Shown here: positions 1-15,257 of the stretch, one piece after another
How positions within the stretch are numbered: the first letter of the stretch is position 1
How the letters are laid out: every line of letters starts with the position of its first letter
Assembly: GCA_000467715.1 (NCBI GenBank)
Contig: AJFK01000569.1
Coordinates: 1 to 24,184, forward strand
DNA length: 24,184 nt
Reading direction: 5' to 3'
Source of the DNA: Hysterium pulicare CBS 123377
Taxonomy: Eukaryota > Ascomycota > Dothideomycetes > Hysteriales > Hysteriaceae
Position numbers and translations under genes: made by a program
Notes under the pieces: model-generated
Database searches by the model: none
Told to the model about the DNA's origin: nothing
What the model saw: only the letters and a program-made list of their open reading frames with translations

Positions 1-531
1 GAAAGGAGCGCAAGTAGAAGAAAGGACCAATTTTAATTTAGAGCAGGTGAGTCTTAATAAGGTGTCAATCCTGTATTGGATTTAAACGTAAAGATGGCAC
101 CAAGTATAATTAAGGGCTCGGGGCTTCTTCTACTGAAATAATGTCACTTTGCCCTCCCGTTGCTTTGAAATTGGACGTTGCAGGAATTTAGTAACAAGGA
201 GTTTGATTGCTCTATAGCATCATGACATGGTGGAAGAGAGAGGTTAGCAATATGACATCAAACACTTGGATGGAGGTCTCTGCATAGAGAACTAAAAGGC
301 CAATGAAAGCGCGGCTTGTGCGATGTCGCCTTCGTGAAAAGAGCTTCAGGGTTGAGCTAATGGAGTGTGGAGCCAGTTCGATAGGTAATTTGTACGGATC
401 ACCTGCAGGGCGGTTGCGATATCACTCTGGGGGTTTGACAGCATCCTGCATGATACGGAGGGTGTGTAAGTGTAACGTTTCCTGCCTTTCTGCTGCATTT
501 TTATTCTAAACTTGCGCATTTCCCCTCCCAA
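1..531. other. Left flank, no gene seen
   Basis: Open frames here are short, lie on both strands, and show no family signature or splice-linked extension. The right end is presumably the upstream region of the gene that starts at 700. I see nothing else in it. Confidence 0.5.
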
Positions 532-579
532 ATGCGAACCAGCACTAGCCGTTCACCCTTTCGCATTTCGGGTTTCTCT

Positions 580-587
580 GATTGGTC
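580..587 (-). promoter_or_regulatory. Possible CCAAT box upstream of the 700-2161 gene
   Basis: GATTGGTC is a CCAAT box in inverted orientation, about 113 bp before the proposed start codon. CCAAT boxes are common in fungal promoters and work in either orientation. The motif is short enough to occur by chance, and it would lie inside the coding region if translation began at the upstream in-frame ATG at 532. Confidence 0.25.
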
Positions 588-682
588 GGCTAAGCGATGG
601 TCCGTGCACCGAGACGCAACAGTAAGTCTTTTAAGAGTTGCTTCCAAGGTTCGTCGTCCTTTCTTGTTACCAATCCACCCCA

Positions 683-703
683 ATGACTTTTTCATTCAAA
701 TGA
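683..703 (+). promoter_or_regulatory. Six-codon upstream ORF overlapping the main start
   Basis: An ATG at 683 opens a six-codon frame (MTFSFK) whose TGA (701-703) overlaps the main ATG (700-702) as ATGA. If the transcript begins upstream of 683, ribosomes using this start would terminate exactly at the main start codon. This arrangement can favour reinitiation or dampen translation. Whether it lies in the mRNA is unknown. Confidence 0.3.
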
Positions 704-2161
704 ATCGCAACGATCTGGCTGACAGAGCTACCGGCGGTATGATTCCACATTTGCCACTTTTAACATGTTATTCACGCACTAACTACAAGTAATATAGCTG
801 CGACTGCCGCAGGCCCAAACCACAATGAAGCGAACACGGGTGCGAAGCGCACACCACAAGCCCCTTCAGGTCGGATTGTTCGGCTAGATTCTCTGTCCAC
901 ACGACGCCAACCACCTATTGCGCTCAGCGCCACCAGCGTCGGCGCTCAGACTCAGAGAGCCATGAATGCGACAGCTGGTACTAGCGAAGAAGAAGGCGAC
1001 GGTAATAATGATGATGAAGTTGGAGATGGCGGGGATGGCTTTGGCGTGGTCTCTCAGAGCGCAATAGCCAACACATTTTACTACTACGACGACGACGATT
1101 GGTTCTTTGACCGTATGTCCGACTATGAATACGACGGTGGCCAAGAAGTACAGAGCAGGGACGAAGCTCAATCACCTAACAACTAGGAAGAAGGATACTT
1201 CTGTAACCCATGTGTTACGTGTTTCGGAAAGCTCAAAGATGTTCTCCAGAACGGCCGTGAGCCCTGCAACTTTGTGCAGGTAACCTTTGGTCCGAAACAA
1301 AACAGAGGCGAGCCTGGCACATCTCGCAGATGTAATCATTGCCAGACCAAGAGTCGAATCTGCTATCAGGTAATTCATTCTGTATCTGCGGCAAGCATTT
1401 TGTGTTTATATTTTACCACAGCTTCCGTCAAAATTCTAAGCCTAGGTTGAGTCAGTTCTAGAAGACGCATCGGCGATACGGAGAAATGATGCGGAGGCGC
1501 CTTCAGTAAGGAAAGTTCTACGGGCCTTCGAATCATTGTGGGAAGATTTCAAGAGGTAAAATCATTCATCAACCTTGGGCTAACAATGGCTAGTGTACAT
1601 TGACAAATGCTGACGTACTGCAGCGAACACAGGTCCTATGAAACTTTGAGCCGCCATCTTGGGAATGCAGAGTGGAATGAGCCGTCCCCCACTGTGGATT
1701 TAACGACGCCGCCCCCTTCCAGGAAGAAGATGAGGAAGGCTTACGATGACGATGACGAAGATGGTTTCTCACCATCTCCTACACCAACCGTGAGTTAACC
1801 TGCACTACCGCTATTATTTCGCTCACACCTTATGCAGCGCATACAACCCAGTATCCTGGAGGGTGTAGAAGGTACGCTTCGTGAGATCAGAAATTCTCTA
1901 AAGAAAACCAATCGTCGCTTAACCGCCTTGGAGGAAAGTTCAGGATCCTGCGAATCCCCCATCGGTCGTCGGGTCATATCCTCATCGCCGATCGTCGGTG
2001 TCACTCCTCGAAGCGGCCATCGTACAGGTCTCTATCGCTCGTACAGCGAGTCTCGCTCGTCTTCGCAGTCAGTCACCACATCTAGGAGTACCCCTAGCCG
2101 TAACCGCGTTGTCACAACTCGGGAAGTGAAGCAAGAGATTGAGATTGTAGATCTCACCTGA
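700..2161 (+). CDS. Six-exon gene: Cys-cluster, coiled-coil, SUMO-motif protein of unknown function
   Basis: The proposed exons are 700-736, 798-1112, 1191-1369, 1446-1555, 1624-1789 and 1838-2161. They total 1131 nt, encode 376 aa, and all five junctions are in phase. Introns of 61, 78, 76, 68 and 48 nt carry donors such as GTATGA, GTATGT and GTGAGT, and branch-like CTAAC or CTGAC. The N-terminal half is acidic (EEEGDG near 76-81, DDDDW near 110-114). Cysteines 122, 125, 128, 143, 165, 168 and 175 include CNHCQTKSRIC, which matches the C-x2-C-x6-C half of a Zn2Cys6 cluster. Residues 237-241 read TVDLT, 247-252 are basic (RKKMRK), about 272-302 look like a coiled coil, and about 305-360 are Ser/Arg-rich. 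The last eleven residues are VKQEIEIVDLT: a psi-K-x-E sumoylation consensus next to a SUMO-interaction-like motif. A nuclear role is inferred. I do not recognise the family. An in-frame ATG at 532 could add 56 residues. The intron 2 acceptor (GAAG, 1190) is the weakest junction. Confidence 0.72.
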
Positions 2162-3860
2162 GGCTTCACATAGACCTGCGGTTCATGGCGCTTAAGCAAG
2201 AGGTTACTCATTTTAGAGTTAAATACTTCTTTGGCTGGGCATATAATCGTGATTGGCGGAAAGCCATCATTCATAGAATTGAATGGTGTTTCTGAATGCC
2301 CAAACGGGCCTTGTGCTTTCATTTGTGTTATGGCACTGATCAATAGCTAGGCCGCCTAATACGAGAAAGAATGTAAATGGTTTTGATCACGTGTCTGCAA
2401 TGAGTTTCCTTTCCAATCAAGTCCTCCCTAACCTGAATGCATCCGCCAATCTGTTAACCCACATCGAGCTCTGAGCTTGGTGCTCAACGTTCATATTCAG
2501 CTTGCCTACTTACAACATTCCCTTACGCGAAAGTTCTCGACTGGGCCGGTTGATAACGCCAGTAGAGCTGGACTGGGCCCATCAATTAGAGCAATTGTCG
2601 CTTCAACAACATTAAATAGCTATTCTTACTGTTTATACCCATTGGTGTATGTTTCTTTGTAGCAGGTTTTGATATTCTCTGCTAGAATAATTCCTTCTCA
2701 GAAGCGTTGCTTTCGAGAGCGATTTCAAAAAGTCGCGTAATTGTAAGAGAAGCGAATCTTCCAAGAAGCTTAGGTTCCCTAACAAACTTTAAGAAAAAGT
2801 GAAAAGTGGAGAGAAATAGTAGCATTAAGTAGCAATCCTTCTACTTCATAACTTAAAAAGTTTTATTAATTTACTCTATAGAATTTTTTTTTAGAAAGAA
2901 TACTTGCTGTCTTAATTTTGAGATGTTACGTAGATTAAGGGGAGAATAGCTTACAAGAAGCTTAGATTCTCCAGCTACTCTCAGGAAGTTTCCAACTGTC
3001 ACTAAAAGTGCTTAGAGTTAGAAGCAATGCTAGAGAAGCATCAGAAAACTTTTATTTGCCGTCTAATGCCTCTGCAGAGCTATACCTCACATGTGCTTTC
3101 CTTTCAGTTCTACTTAGGCTTAGCGTCACCTTCACACTCTCCATTATAGTGGAAAATCACGTCCGAGAAGAAGGAAGCTAATACGTGTACGTCATCATGT
3201 CCCTCATCTATTGCGTAACCCACTGCTAACTTCTCAGGCTAACTTGTACCAAGGTCGACTACTGAGTTTGAGGTATGTGCTGCGTTGCATAGCATCTCTC
3301 AGAATATTGTCAAAGAACGTACAGAAATCGTAGAGATGCCTACCAACAAGTATAATCATACGCACTAAGCGGTTCCGCATTGCATCTAAAATCTTGCTAT
3401 AGATAAGGTATCTGGAGCCACAGCGACGTGACCAAAGAAGCCTTGTTACAAAATATAAGAGAGAACAGCTGAGTTGATCTTAATCAAGAAGTTACAATGT
3501 GAAGAGCCAGCGGAGGGAACCTCCTGGTGATGAGATGCGATTCTTGGCCGGTTGGGGACTATCTGCCAATGGCGAGCGATACTGGCGAAGAGATGTTGGA
3601 AAGATCATAACCGGATTTTCAGCATACATTGGTATAATTGTTGAGATATATTTGAAAGCGAAGCGGTTGATACAGGCCAAGACCAACCACGAAGAGATTT
3701 CAAGAACTGCGCCAGACGCGATTCATGGAAAGTTTTATCTGTATCAATATTACTGTATCGCAAGGATAACTATAGTTTCCAACATTATAACTTTAGCTGT
3801 TCATACGTTCACTGTCTGTATAGACTTTAGAATGGGGGGTAATGCTACCACAAACTCTAT
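2162..3860. other. Intergenic stretch, AT-rich in the middle, no convincing gene
   Basis: From about 2640 to 3060 the sequence is AT-rich with many stops in all frames. The 12-mer CAAGAAGCTTAG occurs at 2762-2773 and again at 2954-2965. A frame at 3535-3864 could encode about 109 residues from an internal ATG, with two hydrophobic stretches (IITGFSAYIGIIVEIYL and a later one). It has no family signature I recognise and no splice support, so I do not call it a gene. Confidence 0.4.
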
Positions 3861-3878
3861 ATAACGTATAGACTTTAG
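3818..3878. repeat. 13-bp direct repeat, 48-bp period
   Basis: GTATAGACTTTAG occurs at 3818-3830 and again, exactly, at 3866-3878. Both copies are followed by a G-rich run. It may be the trace of a small local duplication. Confidence 0.6.
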
Positions 3879-4399
3879 TGAGGGTTGACTTGCAAGGCTT
3901 TCTTGCTGGGGGAGATTTGATTACTTAATTAATCGCGATCGCTTAATGAAGAACTAGTTAGGATTGATTAGTTGCGCAATCAACCGATCGGAGCCCTCGT
4001 TCCTCGAGCGATTACTTGCTGAACTCCCTGCTCTTAGGCGTAAGAATTCGCTCTTACTGCGTTTGGTCAATATTCAAACCGGGGACTTGGTTGGGATGAA
4101 CGAAGAAGGGCAGGCGACGGCTCTCTGTTGGAGCAATGGAGAAGCTGCTCACGCTTCAGTCAGCCTCGTGGGGCTTTTGAATTCGTGCTCATCGGTGTTT
4201 TCGCCATTTCAGGTACAGGTATGCTTGCTGCGGAGGCAAGGAGTTGCCGATCTCTGCTGCCACTGGCTCTGGATGGAAGTATTCTAACTTCCTCAATGTT
4301 GTACCGTGACCTTTCGACCATGACAGCATACTATGCCCCTACATTTCTGAAGTCATGCTACATTATCATACTGCTTCCAGCCACGAAGCTTTTAATGCC

Positions 4400-5090
4400 C
4401 TCACGAGAATATAACCTCATATGGAAGTCCCGACGATGCTCGCCAAGGAAAATATACCGCCAGACTGGTTTGGCTCCGGAAGTCAGGACTTACGGTGTCT
4501 CTGTGAGTCATGCTCGTAGTCTGGACTCGTCCTGCAAGAGACTTCCTTTGTCATCGATCCGACGAAGGGATTGGCATCTGGCCTCGCGGGAGTCGGTAAG
4601 TCAAGCCTTGGACTGCCGCTGTAGTGTGGCTTGGAGATTGCAGGAGGGTGCAGCTATATCGACGGCATAGACGTACAAAGTAGAAGATGTAGGTTTAAGG
4701 GACCTGCATCCACGGTACTTCATGGTGCCACAAGATCCGATGCTATGCGCCGGCAGTTTCCATTACAACCTAGATCCTTCCAATAACTAACATTATACTC
4801 GATGCGTTCGATGTTGTTGACTTACTGGACTCGTCAAATTGCGAGGAGCGTCATCGTGCGCAACCGTCACCACCACGTTCATTTCATGCCAGCACCAAGC
4901 ATTCCATTCATAGCAGCAGGAACTTTCTCGACTCGCCTTTTGCTCTTGGAAAATTGGGTCACATACGTCTGCCAAGCACTTGCCACCTTCTTCATGTTGC
5001 ATGCGCTGTGACCTTCGAAGCTCCCAGAATCATAAATTTAGATGGAGCCATTACGATGGAACCAAATCTTCAGGTACAGCCGTGAATATT
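4400..5090 (+). pseudogene. Relic of an ABCC (MRP-type) transporter, linker and second nucleotide-binding domain
   Basis: Pieces in different + frames match the C-terminal half of fungal ABCC full transporters in the right order. First comes a linker-like ENIPPDWFGSGSQD (about 4448-4490). Then LVLQETSFVIDP and a degenerate Walker A, AGVGKSSLG, near 4590. Next are YIDGIDVQ (about 4652-4675) and VGLRDLHPRYFMVPQDPM (about 4690-4745), followed by NLDPSNN. A faint Walker B-like RIINLDGAIT lies near 5030-5060. In a working pump this domain would bind and hydrolyse ATP for drug or conjugate export. Here the reading frame is broken by in-frame stops and by at least one frame change between YIDGIDVQ and VGLRDL, and the signature region is barely recognisable. 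The upstream part (about 3960-4390) may hold decayed membrane-domain sequence, but I cannot align it by eye. Confidence 0.7.
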
Positions 5091-5099
5091 GAGATCCAT

Positions 5100-5480
5100 C
5101 CCAAGATGAAAGGATGTTATTAGACACACACACGGACTCGGGCGGTTATGGATTACGATATCATCGTTGTTCTGGACGATAGCCAAGCACTGGGAGCCGA
5201 CCATCCTTGGAAGCGTATGGAAATATAGAGTATAGTATCCAAAAGCATAGGTAGCGGGCTGCTGACAACGCGAATGGCCGGGACTGACAATAACCCCATG
5301 GGGTTGGAGGAAGAGGAGGACAGGGGGGTCTCACATATATTATTCTCCCTTTTCCCGGTAGGCTCAATAGCCAGGTACCAACTTTACAGCCAGAAAATTG
5401 AAAACGACTCGAAAACAATCAACCATTCGGCGTTCCGGGAAGTCCCCAAAGCGGTAATGGGTTCAATATCTGTTCCTGCC
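5100..5480. other. Spacer before the first DUF1996 gene
   Basis: A short (AC)n run occurs near 5126-5134. Frames on both strands are short and unconvincing. The right part presumably contains distal promoter sequence of the gene starting at 5715. Confidence 0.4.
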
Positions 5481-5487
5481 CAACCAC

Positions 5488-5495
5488 TATAAAAA
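5488..5495 (+). promoter_or_regulatory. TATA-like element, distal
   Basis: TATAAAAA lies about 220 bp before the DUF1996 start codon. If it is the real core promoter, the leader would include a 43-codon upstream frame (5578-5709) that stops five bases before the main ATG. The TATAAG at 5589 is an alternative. Confidence 0.3.
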
Positions 5496-5588
5496 TTATA
5501 TGAGGCACACATAACAGGAATCCATCGAACAAGTTCTCCGGCTTCGGCAGTTCAGTTTTGCGGGGTGGCGACTGGGCATGGCAGGACG

Positions 5589-5594
5589 TATAAG
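5589..5594 (+). promoter_or_regulatory. TATA-like element, proximal
   Basis: TATAAG lies about 121 bp before the start codon at 5715 and is followed by a pyrimidine-rich stretch (about 5610-5655) of the kind often seen around fungal transcription starts. It is the more natural core promoter for the 5715 gene. Confidence 0.35.
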
Positions 5595-5714
5595 GATCAT
5601 ACCACACATGTCTTGCTGCACTTTCTTGCGCCTCATTCCTTCGCTATCCCAACAGTCAACCGTCGTCGTCGTTAACCACCAAGGCCCAGACAAACATCAA
5701 GTTTGCTAGTCAAG

Positions 5715-6864
5715 ATGCAGTGGGTTTCTCTCGCCGCTTTGGCGCTGCTTTCGCAGCAAGCCGCCGCCCAAGGCAACATGCTTCGTTTCGCATGTTCGCA
5801 GCTCGTCGTCGACCGTGTGGACCCCCTGGTGAACCCCGGAATTCGATACACCCCACATCTTCATCAGATCGTCGGAGGAAACTCGTTCAACATCACCATG
5901 GACCCAGCCAATCACGACCCAGCCACCCTATCCACCTGCACATCTTGCAACTTCAAGCAGGACAAGTCCAACTACTGGACCGCTGTGATGTTCTTCAAAG
6001 CGAAGAATGGAACCTACAAGCGTGTTCCTCAGACTGGAAACGGAGGTCCACAGGGTAAGCTTGTGAACAAGGGCGGTCTCGACGTTTACTATATCCCCAG
6101 CGGCAAGACTACCGCATTTAAGCCAGTAAGTGTTCTTGAAAGGGCATCGAACGGGCAGTTCTAACGAGACCCAGGGTTTCCGTATGCTTGCTGGAAATGC
6201 CGCAAACACAGATCCCAAGAAGGTCTCCTCCGGTAACATCTGCCATCGCTGCTGGACGTCCACAACCGACACTCCCTTCGTCGGTGGTGCGCCCTGCTCC
6301 GGCAGTGACACCGTGGATATTCCCATGGACACAAAATGCAAGATGATCCGACAGACCATTATCTTCCCTACGTAAGTCCATACGGCTATTTCGCCCTCGT
6401 TTATCTAGATTGCTTACGAGATTAGATGCTGGGATGGCAAGAACCTCGACTCTCCAGACCACAAGAGCCACGTTGCCTACTCAGGAAGCGGAGCCTCGGG
6501 AGGTGGAGCCTGCCCATCTGCTTTCCCCGTCAAGCTTCCCCAAGTCATGTACGAGCTCATGTGGGATGTTTCTCAATTCATGGACAAGAGCATCTTCCCC
6601 GCCGACGGCTCCAACCCATTCATGTACAGCATGAACCTCGGTGGCGCTGCTGCTCACGGTGATTACGTCTTCGGATGGGAGGGAGACTCTCTCCAGAAGG
6701 CCATGGACAACAACTGCAACCTCAACAAGGATTGCCCCAAGGCCGGACTTGTCGCCCAATCGTCCGACGCATACAGCGCATGCACAATGAAGCAACAAGC
6801 ACCAGAAGATGTTGATGGATGGCTCACCGCTCTCCCCATGGGCGCCATGGCCGAGAAGGCATAG
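5715..6864 (+). CDS. Secreted DUF1996 family protein (paralogue 1)
   Basis: The exons are 5715-6125, 6175-6371 and 6426-6864 (1047 nt, 348 aa), with introns of 49 and 54 nt, both with GTAAGT donors. The first intron has a CTAAC branch and a CAG acceptor. A signal peptide covers about residues 1-18 (MQWVSLAALALLSQQAAA). The DUF1996 hallmark follows: FACSQLVVDRVDPLVNPG, then HLHQIVGGNSFN (about 48-59). Further conserved blocks are CTSC, SNYWTA, GFRMLAGN, CHRCW, CWDGKNLDSPDHKSH, QVMYELMWDVS and HGDYVFGWEGDSLQ. The family is secreted, widespread in filamentous fungi and of unknown biochemical function. The start is set by the signal peptide and the TCAAGATG context. A second copy lies at 13972-15257. 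Only the intron before GFRM is shared between the two; the intron inside the PTCWDGK block is unique to this copy. Confidence 0.93.
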
Positions 6865-8602: not shown

Positions 8603-9402
8603 ATGTATTTGACTTCTGTGCTCACGAGTGCAGCGGCTCTAGTGGGTATCGGTGCGTCATCGCTCACAAATCCTCTTCGGAAAACCGCTTTCCACTGACA
8701 ACCCCCTCAGCATCCGGCCTCAAAGGACGAAACCCCGCCTCCAACATTCAAGCCGCCGACTCGGTCGTCTACAAAGATAGCGAGACTGGCTTCACCTTCT
8801 CCCAATACAATGCGCAGTATGTATTCGGCAAATACATCACCTTCCGCATCGCCATCCCTTCGCCCGTCTCCGCAAACACACCCTACGACGCCGTAGTCCA
8901 AGTCGCCGCCCCCAACGATGTCGGATGGGCTGGCTTATCATGGGGAGGGAGTATGATCAACAGCCCGCTAAGTGTAGGGTGGGCGAATGGCAACAGTGCC
9001 ATGGTCTCTTCCCGTCACGCGACGTAAGTATGCGAATGGAAAAAGAGTTCAGCTTTTCTTCTTCGAAGGCTGACAATTGACTTTGCCAGCGACCATACCT
9101 ACCCATCCTCCTACTCCGGCGCCTCTTATTCCCTCCTCAAAAAGGGCACCCACACCAACGGCACCCACTGGCAATACACAGCCAAGTGCTCCGGCTGCAC
9201 CACCATTTCCAGCGGTCGCATCCTCGACCCTCACGGCTCTAACCGTCTCGCGTTCGCCTACTCGGCTGCTCGACCCTCCTCTCCGTCCTCCAACACGTCC
9301 AGCTTCTCGGTTCACGATGTCACGAATTATTGGAACCATGACTTTTCGGCGGCGGGGAATACGGCTTTCACAAGCCTTGTGGCGACGAATGGGGGAAGTT
9401 AG
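8603..9402 (+). CDS. Secreted stand-alone AA8-type cytochrome b domain protein
   Basis: The exons are 8603-8651, 8711-9023 and 9090-9402 (675 nt, 224 aa), with introns of 59 nt (GTGCGT donor, CTGAC branch) and 66 nt (GTAAGT donor). A signal peptide covers about residues 1-19 (MYLTSVLTSAAALVGIASG). The rest aligns with the N-terminal haem domain of cellobiose dehydrogenase. GWAGLSWGGSM carries Met98, and SSFSVHD carries His196; these match axial ligands Met65 and His163 of the Phanerochaete chrysosporium enzyme. The VGWANGN block, a CSGC cysteine pair (154/157) and the glycosylation sequon NGT-HW are also conserved. The protein stops after the domain, with no flavin dehydrogenase, cellulose-binding module or membrane anchor. 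The expected role is extracellular electron transfer, for example to a lytic polysaccharide monooxygenase or a quinone; the partner is unknown. The start is the first ATG after 8403 and gives the signal peptide. A donor at 8646 is also in phase and would delete two residues. Confidence 0.9.
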
Positions 9403-13971: not shown

Positions 13972-15257
13972 ATGTTTTGGCAGTCTCTCGCACTTGTTGC
14001 GTTACTTGCGCAAGATGTTTGTGCCGAAGGAAATGCGGGTTTTCTACGATTCGGCTGCTCTCAGCTCGTCGTTGAGCGTACAGACCCACTTGTCTCCCCT
14101 GGAATGAATCCGTCTCCACATATGCATCAGGTCGTTGGAGGGAATTCGTTCAACATTACGGTATAGTAATGACCCGACTCTCTGACAAAGGCATGTAACT
14201 AACTATGGTCCAGATGGACCCCAGCAGCCATGATCCCCCAGCGCAATCTACTTGCACGTCTTGCATCTATACCGAGGACACTAGCAACTATTGGACAGCC
14301 TCTATTTACTTCCAATCCCCCGAGAATGGCACGTTCAGACGAGTCCCGCAGATGGCGAACGGCCGCTTGAACAGAACTTTACTCGAGCAGGACGGAGGCC
14401 TTACCGTGTATTATATGCGACCATTTAGTGGCGGTAAGAACACAACTGCTTTCAAGCCTGTAAGTAGAACTCCCGCACACATGTTTCTCCATTAGATCAA
14501 CATGACGAAGGGTTTTCGAATGCTTGCGGGGAATCCAATGCTCCGCAGCAAGGATGGCACATCCCCAGGCATCTGTCACCGCTGCCTTAAGGCAAGTGAT
14601 CGCATGATGGGAGGCAATGGCGCCCCTTGTAGTTCCGGTGACACGTCCACCTTCCCCACTACGCCGTGCGCGGGTGGTATTCGCGCAACAATCATCTTCC
14701 CGTCATGCTGGGATGGGAAGAACTTGGACAGCCCAGATCATAAAAGCCACGTGACATATGCGCCTGGCGCTGCGCTTGCAGGCGATAAGTGTCCAAGCAC
14801 ACACCCTGTTCGAATTCCTCAAGTCATGTACGAGATCATGTTCGACACATCGGGGTTCGCTAATCCGGACTACTATAAAAATGGCAAGCAGCCACTCGTC
14901 TATAGCTTCGGTGATCCGTTAGTCCTCATTCCCATCTGCTATCAGGTTACTTTCTGACTCTAAATGTAGAACTGGATACGGGGCGCACGGCGACTACCTC
15001 TTTGGCTGGAAAGGCGATGCCCTTCAACGCGGCATGAACGCTCTCGACGGTGATAACTGCGGCAGCGAGGGATGCGAGAAATTTCTGAAGATTCAAGCCG
15101 GCAAGGATGCCATTGCATGCACCAAGGCGCAGCAAGCCAAGGAAGATGCCGGGTCAACCACTTGTACGTATAACCCCTCCATTGCTAGTACCCATTCTTA
15201 ACACTTGTTTTAGGGCTTAAGGAACTCCCCGGCGGGGTGAAGATTACCACTTCGTGA
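13972..15257 (+). CDS. Secreted DUF1996 family protein (paralogue 2)
   Basis: The exons are 13972-14160, 14214-14459, 14511-14917, 14970-15163 and 15214-15257 (1080 nt, 359 aa), all in phase, with introns of 50-53 nt. A signal peptide covers about residues 1-18 (MFWQSLALVALLAQDVCA). The family blocks are FGCSQLVVERTDPLVSPG, HMHQVVGGNSFN, CTSC, SNYWTA, GFRMLAGN, CHRCL, CWDGKNLDSPDHKSH, QVMYEIMFDTS, DPTGYGAHGDYLFGWKGD and ALQRGM. Intron 1 has a weak GTATAG donor but a good CTAAC branch. For intron 2 an alternative TAG acceptor at 14495 is also in frame and would add INMTK, but that intron would be only 36 nt, so 14510 is preferred. The gene is close in sequence to the 5715-6864 copy but has three introns that copy lacks and lacks one that copy has. 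The function of the family is unknown. Confidence 0.92.

Follow-up and report, generated by a model that had tools for sequence, protein, structure and literature searches.

A gene of Hysterium pulicare modelled in six exons, its open paralogue, and a possible turning of damaged exon pieces into intron

Comparison with a paralogue in the same genome confirmed that the split gene at positions 700-2161 of the window (the whole of contig C417, 24,184 bases, in a host genome of 37.2 Mb and 596 contigs) is a real multi-exon protein gene with fungal-type introns. The window copy would yield the full protein only with intron 2 and the tail of intron 3 spliced out. We put forward, as a possible and still doubtful account, that the gene survived nonsense mutations by turning damaged exon pieces into intron, that a DUF3716-like, SUMO-binding zinc-cluster protein may still be made, and that the open paralogue would represent the earlier state.

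Gene model and paralogue

The model lies on the plus strand and joins exon 1 (700-736, 37 nt, ending at phase 1), exon 2 (798-1112, S/T-rich and then acidic), exon 3 (1191-1369), exon 4 (1446-1555), exon 5 (1624-1789) and exon 6 (1838-2161) into 1131 nt, an open frame of 376 codons and a stop with all five junctions in phase. Each of the five stretches removed starts with GT and ends with AG. The six exons joining in phase to 376 residues, as given by the initial annotation, were reproduced. In a branch-point survey of 22 exon pairs, whose scoring itself favoured introns with the motif, the top intron candidate scored at least 7 in 15 pairs and carried a branch motif in 14 of these; a single motif was present in 11, with 10-23 nt separating it from the acceptor. 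The window as a whole contained neither a tRNA nor an Rfam family at its gathering score.

A genome search with the window protein (E up to 10) returned seven matching stretches on two contigs only, the window itself and C296 (63.8-65.1 kb, minus strand), and a search with the paralogue protein returned nine stretches on the same two contigs. The single diverged paralogue (C296:63781-65182, minus strand) encodes 395 aa as modelled in five exons, with splice sites fitted by hand using the window protein as guide. A two-sequence comparison aligned the window protein with it from residue 15 through to the C-terminus (190 bits, E 2e-61). Each of the four modelled paralogue introns coincides, in alignment column and in phase, with one of the window introns 1 (737-797), 3 (1370-1445), 4 (1556-1623, phase 2) and 5 (1790-1837, phase 0, 48 nt in both copies), and exon 1 is 37 nt in both genes. 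The earlier argument that such junctions are unlikely by chance is upheld by this matching exon length and these four introns. Introns 2 to 4 are needed in the paralogue model, since two of them (62 and 50 nt) would otherwise change the frame and the third (48 nt) would bring in a stop; intron 1 of the paralogue (54 nt, open) is not needed for either reason. The two copies also share the well conserved exon-4 stretch (SAIR..D..APSV.KVLR.F...W.DF), whereas the paralogue differs in having no intron 2 and in carrying eight extra codons at the opening of the exon after its intron-3 match.

Between the copies, 144 of the 354 aligned residues are identical. Over the same 354 codons, synonymous sites are near saturation (pS 0.718, where unrelated bases would give 0.75) and non-synonymous sites are not (pN 0.404; NG86 dN 0.58, dS 2.8); with the paralogue codons shuffled, the mean rose to 0.739 against the observed pN. 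Identity at codon positions 1, 2 and 3 is 56, 62 and 37%. Judged by this pattern of substitution, the window gene and the C296 gene are old duplicates kept as protein genes under purifying selection. When 30 kb of C296 was searched for synteny, there was no blastn hit; of 528 open frames of the window compared by tblastn (E 1e-3), only those of the gene itself matched, in sense and antisense frames. Outside this genome, 36 pattern matches in a bacterial and archaeal contig collection contained no relative at E 1e-3, and 117 pattern matches in a viral contig collection likewise contained none; neither collection bears on orthologues in fungi.

Introns with coding-like sequence and in-frame stops

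Four of the five introns initially proposed are thus supported by the paralogue, and the support does not extend to intron 2 or to the exact 3' end of intron 3. The description of the gene as intact is accordingly not established: three in-frame stops (TAG 1184-1186, TAA 1437-1439 and TAG 1443-1445) lie where the paralogue is open coding sequence, and because intron 2 and the intron 3 tail carry them, intactness depends on presumed splicing. Across the other 376 codons the window copy has no frameshift with respect to the paralogue, and no stop by construction of the model.

The proposed intron 2 (1113-1190) has no counterpart in the paralogue, where exon 2 is 560 nt long and open, with no frame-keeping candidate intron even by loose criteria. 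Translated unspliced, this stretch of the window yields 26 codons, acidic in character and interrupted by a single stop, the TAG at 1184-1186. Its composition sets it apart from the other eight introns of the two genes, with T at 0.15 (against 0.26-0.38) and G at 0.27 (against 0.11-0.21). The low T and high G suggest that intron 2 is probably derived from exon. This origin is not proven, given that A stands at 0.36, above every exon (0.19-0.30), that a T content as low as this occurs in only 7% of exonic 78-nt windows, and that 499 of 500 shuffles of the intron-2 peptide alone reach its score against the paralogue. The putative homology of the acidic stretch rests on its colinearity, on its composition and on a global alignment score that is slightly better with intron 2 read through (505 against 495).

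The splicing signals of intron 2 are strong, with a GTATGT donor, a CTAAC motif at 1176-1180 and frame-keeping acceptors 11 and 14 nt past the branch A (1190 and 1193). The acceptor would be AAG; an earlier TAG (1186) ends 7 nt past the branch A and would break the frame if used. In 23 long open frames of 8197 codons (the two genes and the longest open frames of other loci, not all of them proven genes), stretches that keep the frame and carry signals of this kind span 250, 76 or 20 codons (3%, 0.9% and 0.2%) as the strictness rises. The length of intron 2, 78 nt, is divisible by 3, and the same held for all five introns newly made from exons in a Cryptococcus study (PMC2740785). That study counts, among 28,256 introns, five intronisations and at most 10 clear boundary moves, both rare, and four of the five exon-made introns were also seen unspliced.

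Intron 3 (1370-1445) shares its donor position with the paralogue, and its last 24 nt (1422-1445) resemble paralogue coding sequence, with 14 of 24 positions identical; 15 of the 24160 24-mers in the window, that site included, match the paralogue stretch equally well. The paralogue exon after the intron-3 match starts FPVKYQGK-V. In that register the window reads LPSKF*A*-V, which falls within the proposed intron, the two asterisks being the TAA and the second TAG given above. When the genome was searched with the paralogue protein, the match in the window started at 1419, just ahead of this stretch. The 24-nt match and this start suggest that the intron 3 acceptor has shifted from 1421 to 1445 and now lies beyond two stops.

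Intron 1 is T-rich in both copies. Its early codons (739-762) read MIPHLPLL in the window and MIPRLPLL in the paralogue; of the five codons that differ, four encode the same residue. When the eight differences were placed at random, at least seven of the eight residues were kept in 0.0003 of 20,000 trials, for a stretch that was picked after it had been seen. The frame of intron 1 is open in the paralogue and meets a stop in the window copy. The start of intron 1 looks like former or optional coding sequence, which the gene model does not explain.

The predicted protein and DUF3716

Exon 3 carries six conserved cysteines (C-x2-C-x14-C-x21-C-x2-C-x6-C), with identical spacing in the paralogue, and 33 of its 59 alignment columns are identical; a seventh cysteine, the first in the window, is not conserved. 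The layout initially proposed for the protein holds in part, since the acidic region, the Cys cluster and the C-terminal SUMO-type motif are also present in the paralogue, whereas the basic patch of exon 5 (SRKKMRK) and a psi-K-x-E site are found in the window copy only. Exon 6 encodes a coiled-coil-like stretch (by eye), which is shorter in the paralogue. In both copies the exon-4 stretch is followed by a divergent S/R-rich tail that ends in EIE[IM][VI]DLT (EIEIVDLT in the window, EIEMIDLT in the paralogue), and the last 10 columns are identical at seven positions, against one to five of 10 in the six preceding blocks. The extreme C-termini IVDLT (window) and MIDLT (paralogue) contain the sequence (I/V)DLT, which is named as the core of SUMO-interacting motifs in an earlier paper (PMC4907222), and we consider this ending a conserved, putative motif of the SUMO-interaction type. 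It shares the core of the PIAS1-type motif (VIDLT), and differs in its setting, as Pfam finds no SP-RING or other PIAS domain in either copy.

No Pfam family reached its cut-off for the window protein, its Cys domain, that of the paralogue or the paralogue itself. The window protein scored 11.5 bits (E 0.23) against HAUS4 (PF14735), where the gathering score is 25 bits and where the paralogue gave no match, and A1_Propeptide reached 12.1 bits against a cut-off of 20.5. The Zn2Cys6 (GAL4-type) zinc cluster had no Pfam match in either copy; its first half is C-x2-C-x6-C, and the corresponding half here is C-x2-C-x14-C. A profile search of the PDB (E up to 10) returned nothing, and predicting a structure for the Cys domain from a two-row alignment was unsuccessful (mean pLDDT 39.8).

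A link to DUF3716 (PF12511) was at first a guess based on the cysteine pattern of that family. In Pfam searches, neither the window protein (E up to 1) nor the Cys domains and paralogue (E up to 10) gave a match to it, the gathering score being 22 bits, though the HMMER filters drop most matches above about 0.1; as positive controls, domains of the same genome scored 65.9 and 62.9 bits, and a domain on C226 scored 19.4. At E up to 1, DUF3716 matches six places in the genome. Two lie above the Pfam cut-off (C296:59037-59198, minus strand, 4.6 kb from the paralogue, and C135:3555-3716, minus strand) and four below it, namely a whole domain just under the cut-off (C226:3360-3521, Pfam E 0.001) and three weaker partial matches, one to profile positions 1-26 of 59 (C374:680-763) and the others on C449 and C113.

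The window protein has the same six-Cys order with two C-x2-C knuckles as the two clear domains. The DUF3716 proteins of this genome share with it the P-C-x2-C opening, the order C-x2-C-x(n)-C-x(n)-C-x2-C-x(n)-C and, around the cysteines, acidic, basic and coiled-coil-like stretches (by eye, in unspliced open frames). The spacing is not the same: the window copy and the paralogue have 2-14-21-2-6, the two clear domains have 2-9-10-2-8 and the C226 domain has 2-6-22-2-7. In a low-power test with a profile of the two clear domains, 21 of 300 full shuffles of the window sequence and 12 of 300 of the paralogue reached the true score, rising to 33 and 23 of 300 when the cysteines were kept fixed; the C226 domain did no better in this test (29 and 38 of 300). 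With a three-domain profile, equally of low power, the counts for window and paralogue were 152 and 124 of 300 for full shuffles and 171 and 190 of 300 with fixed cysteines. Alignment to DUF3716 by hhalign, from two or three rows only, gave probabilities of 1.1 and 0.7% and no usable alignment.

These likenesses point to a possible relation, in which the window protein may work like the six-Cys proteins of the DUF3716 type while falling outside Pfam membership. The earlier statement that no named family has such a layout is weakened by the comparable proteins in the same genome, but the window protein itself has no DUF3716 score. Among the papers searched in full text, none contained the word DUF3716 and one, on a strain-specific Colletotrichum gene (PMC5225507), contained PF12511.

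Competing readings and the neighbourhood of the gene

The reading that we favour, and to which we give an even chance as a whole, is that of a real gene with an intronised exon piece, a moved acceptor and a zinc-cluster, SUMO-binding product. An acidic part of exon 2 would have become intron 2 in the window copy and the acceptor of intron 3 would have shifted 24 nt downstream, so that the three in-frame stops, in what is coding sequence in the paralogue, would be spliced out of the mRNA and the 376-residue protein made. In that protein the six conserved cysteines may bind zinc, the C-terminal coiled-coil-like part may self-associate and the extreme C-terminal (I/V)DLT may dock on SUMO, which would make the product a nuclear, SUMO-binding zinc-cluster adaptor or regulator. 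Rescue by splicing is favoured because the rest of the gene has no frameshift, the signals are better than usual chance and the length is a multiple of 3. The reading needs one intronisation and one boundary shift; because such events are rare and mostly alternatively spliced in the fungal study cited above (PMC2740785), we raise our confidence no further.

An unlikely alternative is a recent pseudogene, in which the paralogue keeps the ancestral frame, the window copy has gained in-frame stops (a TAG in the acidic region, and a TAA and a TAG where the following exon begins), its product ends before the Cys cluster, and intron 2 and the long form of intron 3 are artefacts of picking GT-AG pairs by which stops are bypassed. 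All three stops do sit opposite open sequence that belongs to the coding part of the paralogue model, the composition of intron 2 is not intron-like, a change of splice boundary was rare in that one fungal study (PMC2740785), and the coding-like start of intron 1 too runs into a stop in the window copy and stays open in the paralogue. Yet elsewhere the copy has no frameshift, splice signals as good as those of intron 2 cover just 0.2-3% of codons, and neutral decay should, we infer, scatter lesions and add indels. Nor is there a RIP signature by either index in window 1-2000, and RIP as the cause of the stops is unsupported: by the usual cut-offs, neither TpA/ApT (0.82 and 0.75) nor (CA+TG)/(AC+GT) (1.27 and 1.12) is indicative in 1-1000 and 1001-2000. 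In 2001-3000, which holds the last 161 bases of the gene, one of the two indices is raised (TpA/ApT 1.03; the other is 1.16).

We consider it quite unlikely that intron 2 is an alternative splicing switch, sometimes removed to give the full protein and sometimes retained to give a product ending at the TAG before the Cys cluster, or a destroyed mRNA. Such a switch would fit the four of five exon-made Cryptococcus introns also seen unspliced (PMC2740785), the closeness of the frame-keeping acceptors (1190, 1193) to the frame-breaking one (1186), and the open 54-nt intron 1 of the paralogue, which could be optional too, but it overlaps with the favoured reading. That the model is not a gene at all, being a chance in-phase assembly of open stretches, would agree with a protein below the cut-off of every Pfam family; it is, in our view, refuted by the paralogue, with its matching introns and an alignment that runs from residue 15 to the C-terminus, and by near-saturated synonymous beside constrained non-synonymous sites, and we hold it to be extremely improbable.

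The initial annotation placed the gene beside decayed sequence. Downstream of the gene, a comparison of window 2170-5600 with the rest of the genome (E 1e-5, in a search that skips very common words) found only a short dispersed repeat, about 80 bases at 2685-2778 with 78-79% identity on four other contigs (C456, C11, C161 and C66). Further along, the window contains two DUF1996 genes (5820-6678 and 14083-14918), members of a large family with 52 exon-level matches across the genome. It also contains two matches to the cellobiose dehydrogenase cytochrome domain (CDH-cyt; 8770-9024 and 9076-9372) in the same frame with a stop (9025-9027) between them, which are probably exons around an intron. 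The DUF1996 and CDH-cyt domains, together with the short GT-AG introns, point to fungal DNA.

In conclusion, we regard this as an ordinary gene whose splicing history may be its interesting part. Calling a gene intact from a GT-AG model that was picked to bypass stops calls for prior comparison with a paralogue. The two genes represent a fungal protein family that is uncharacterised, is likely linked to SUMO and may be related to DUF3716. As a pair within one genome, they would also allow tests of how exons turn into introns and of whether stop codons can be hidden in this way.
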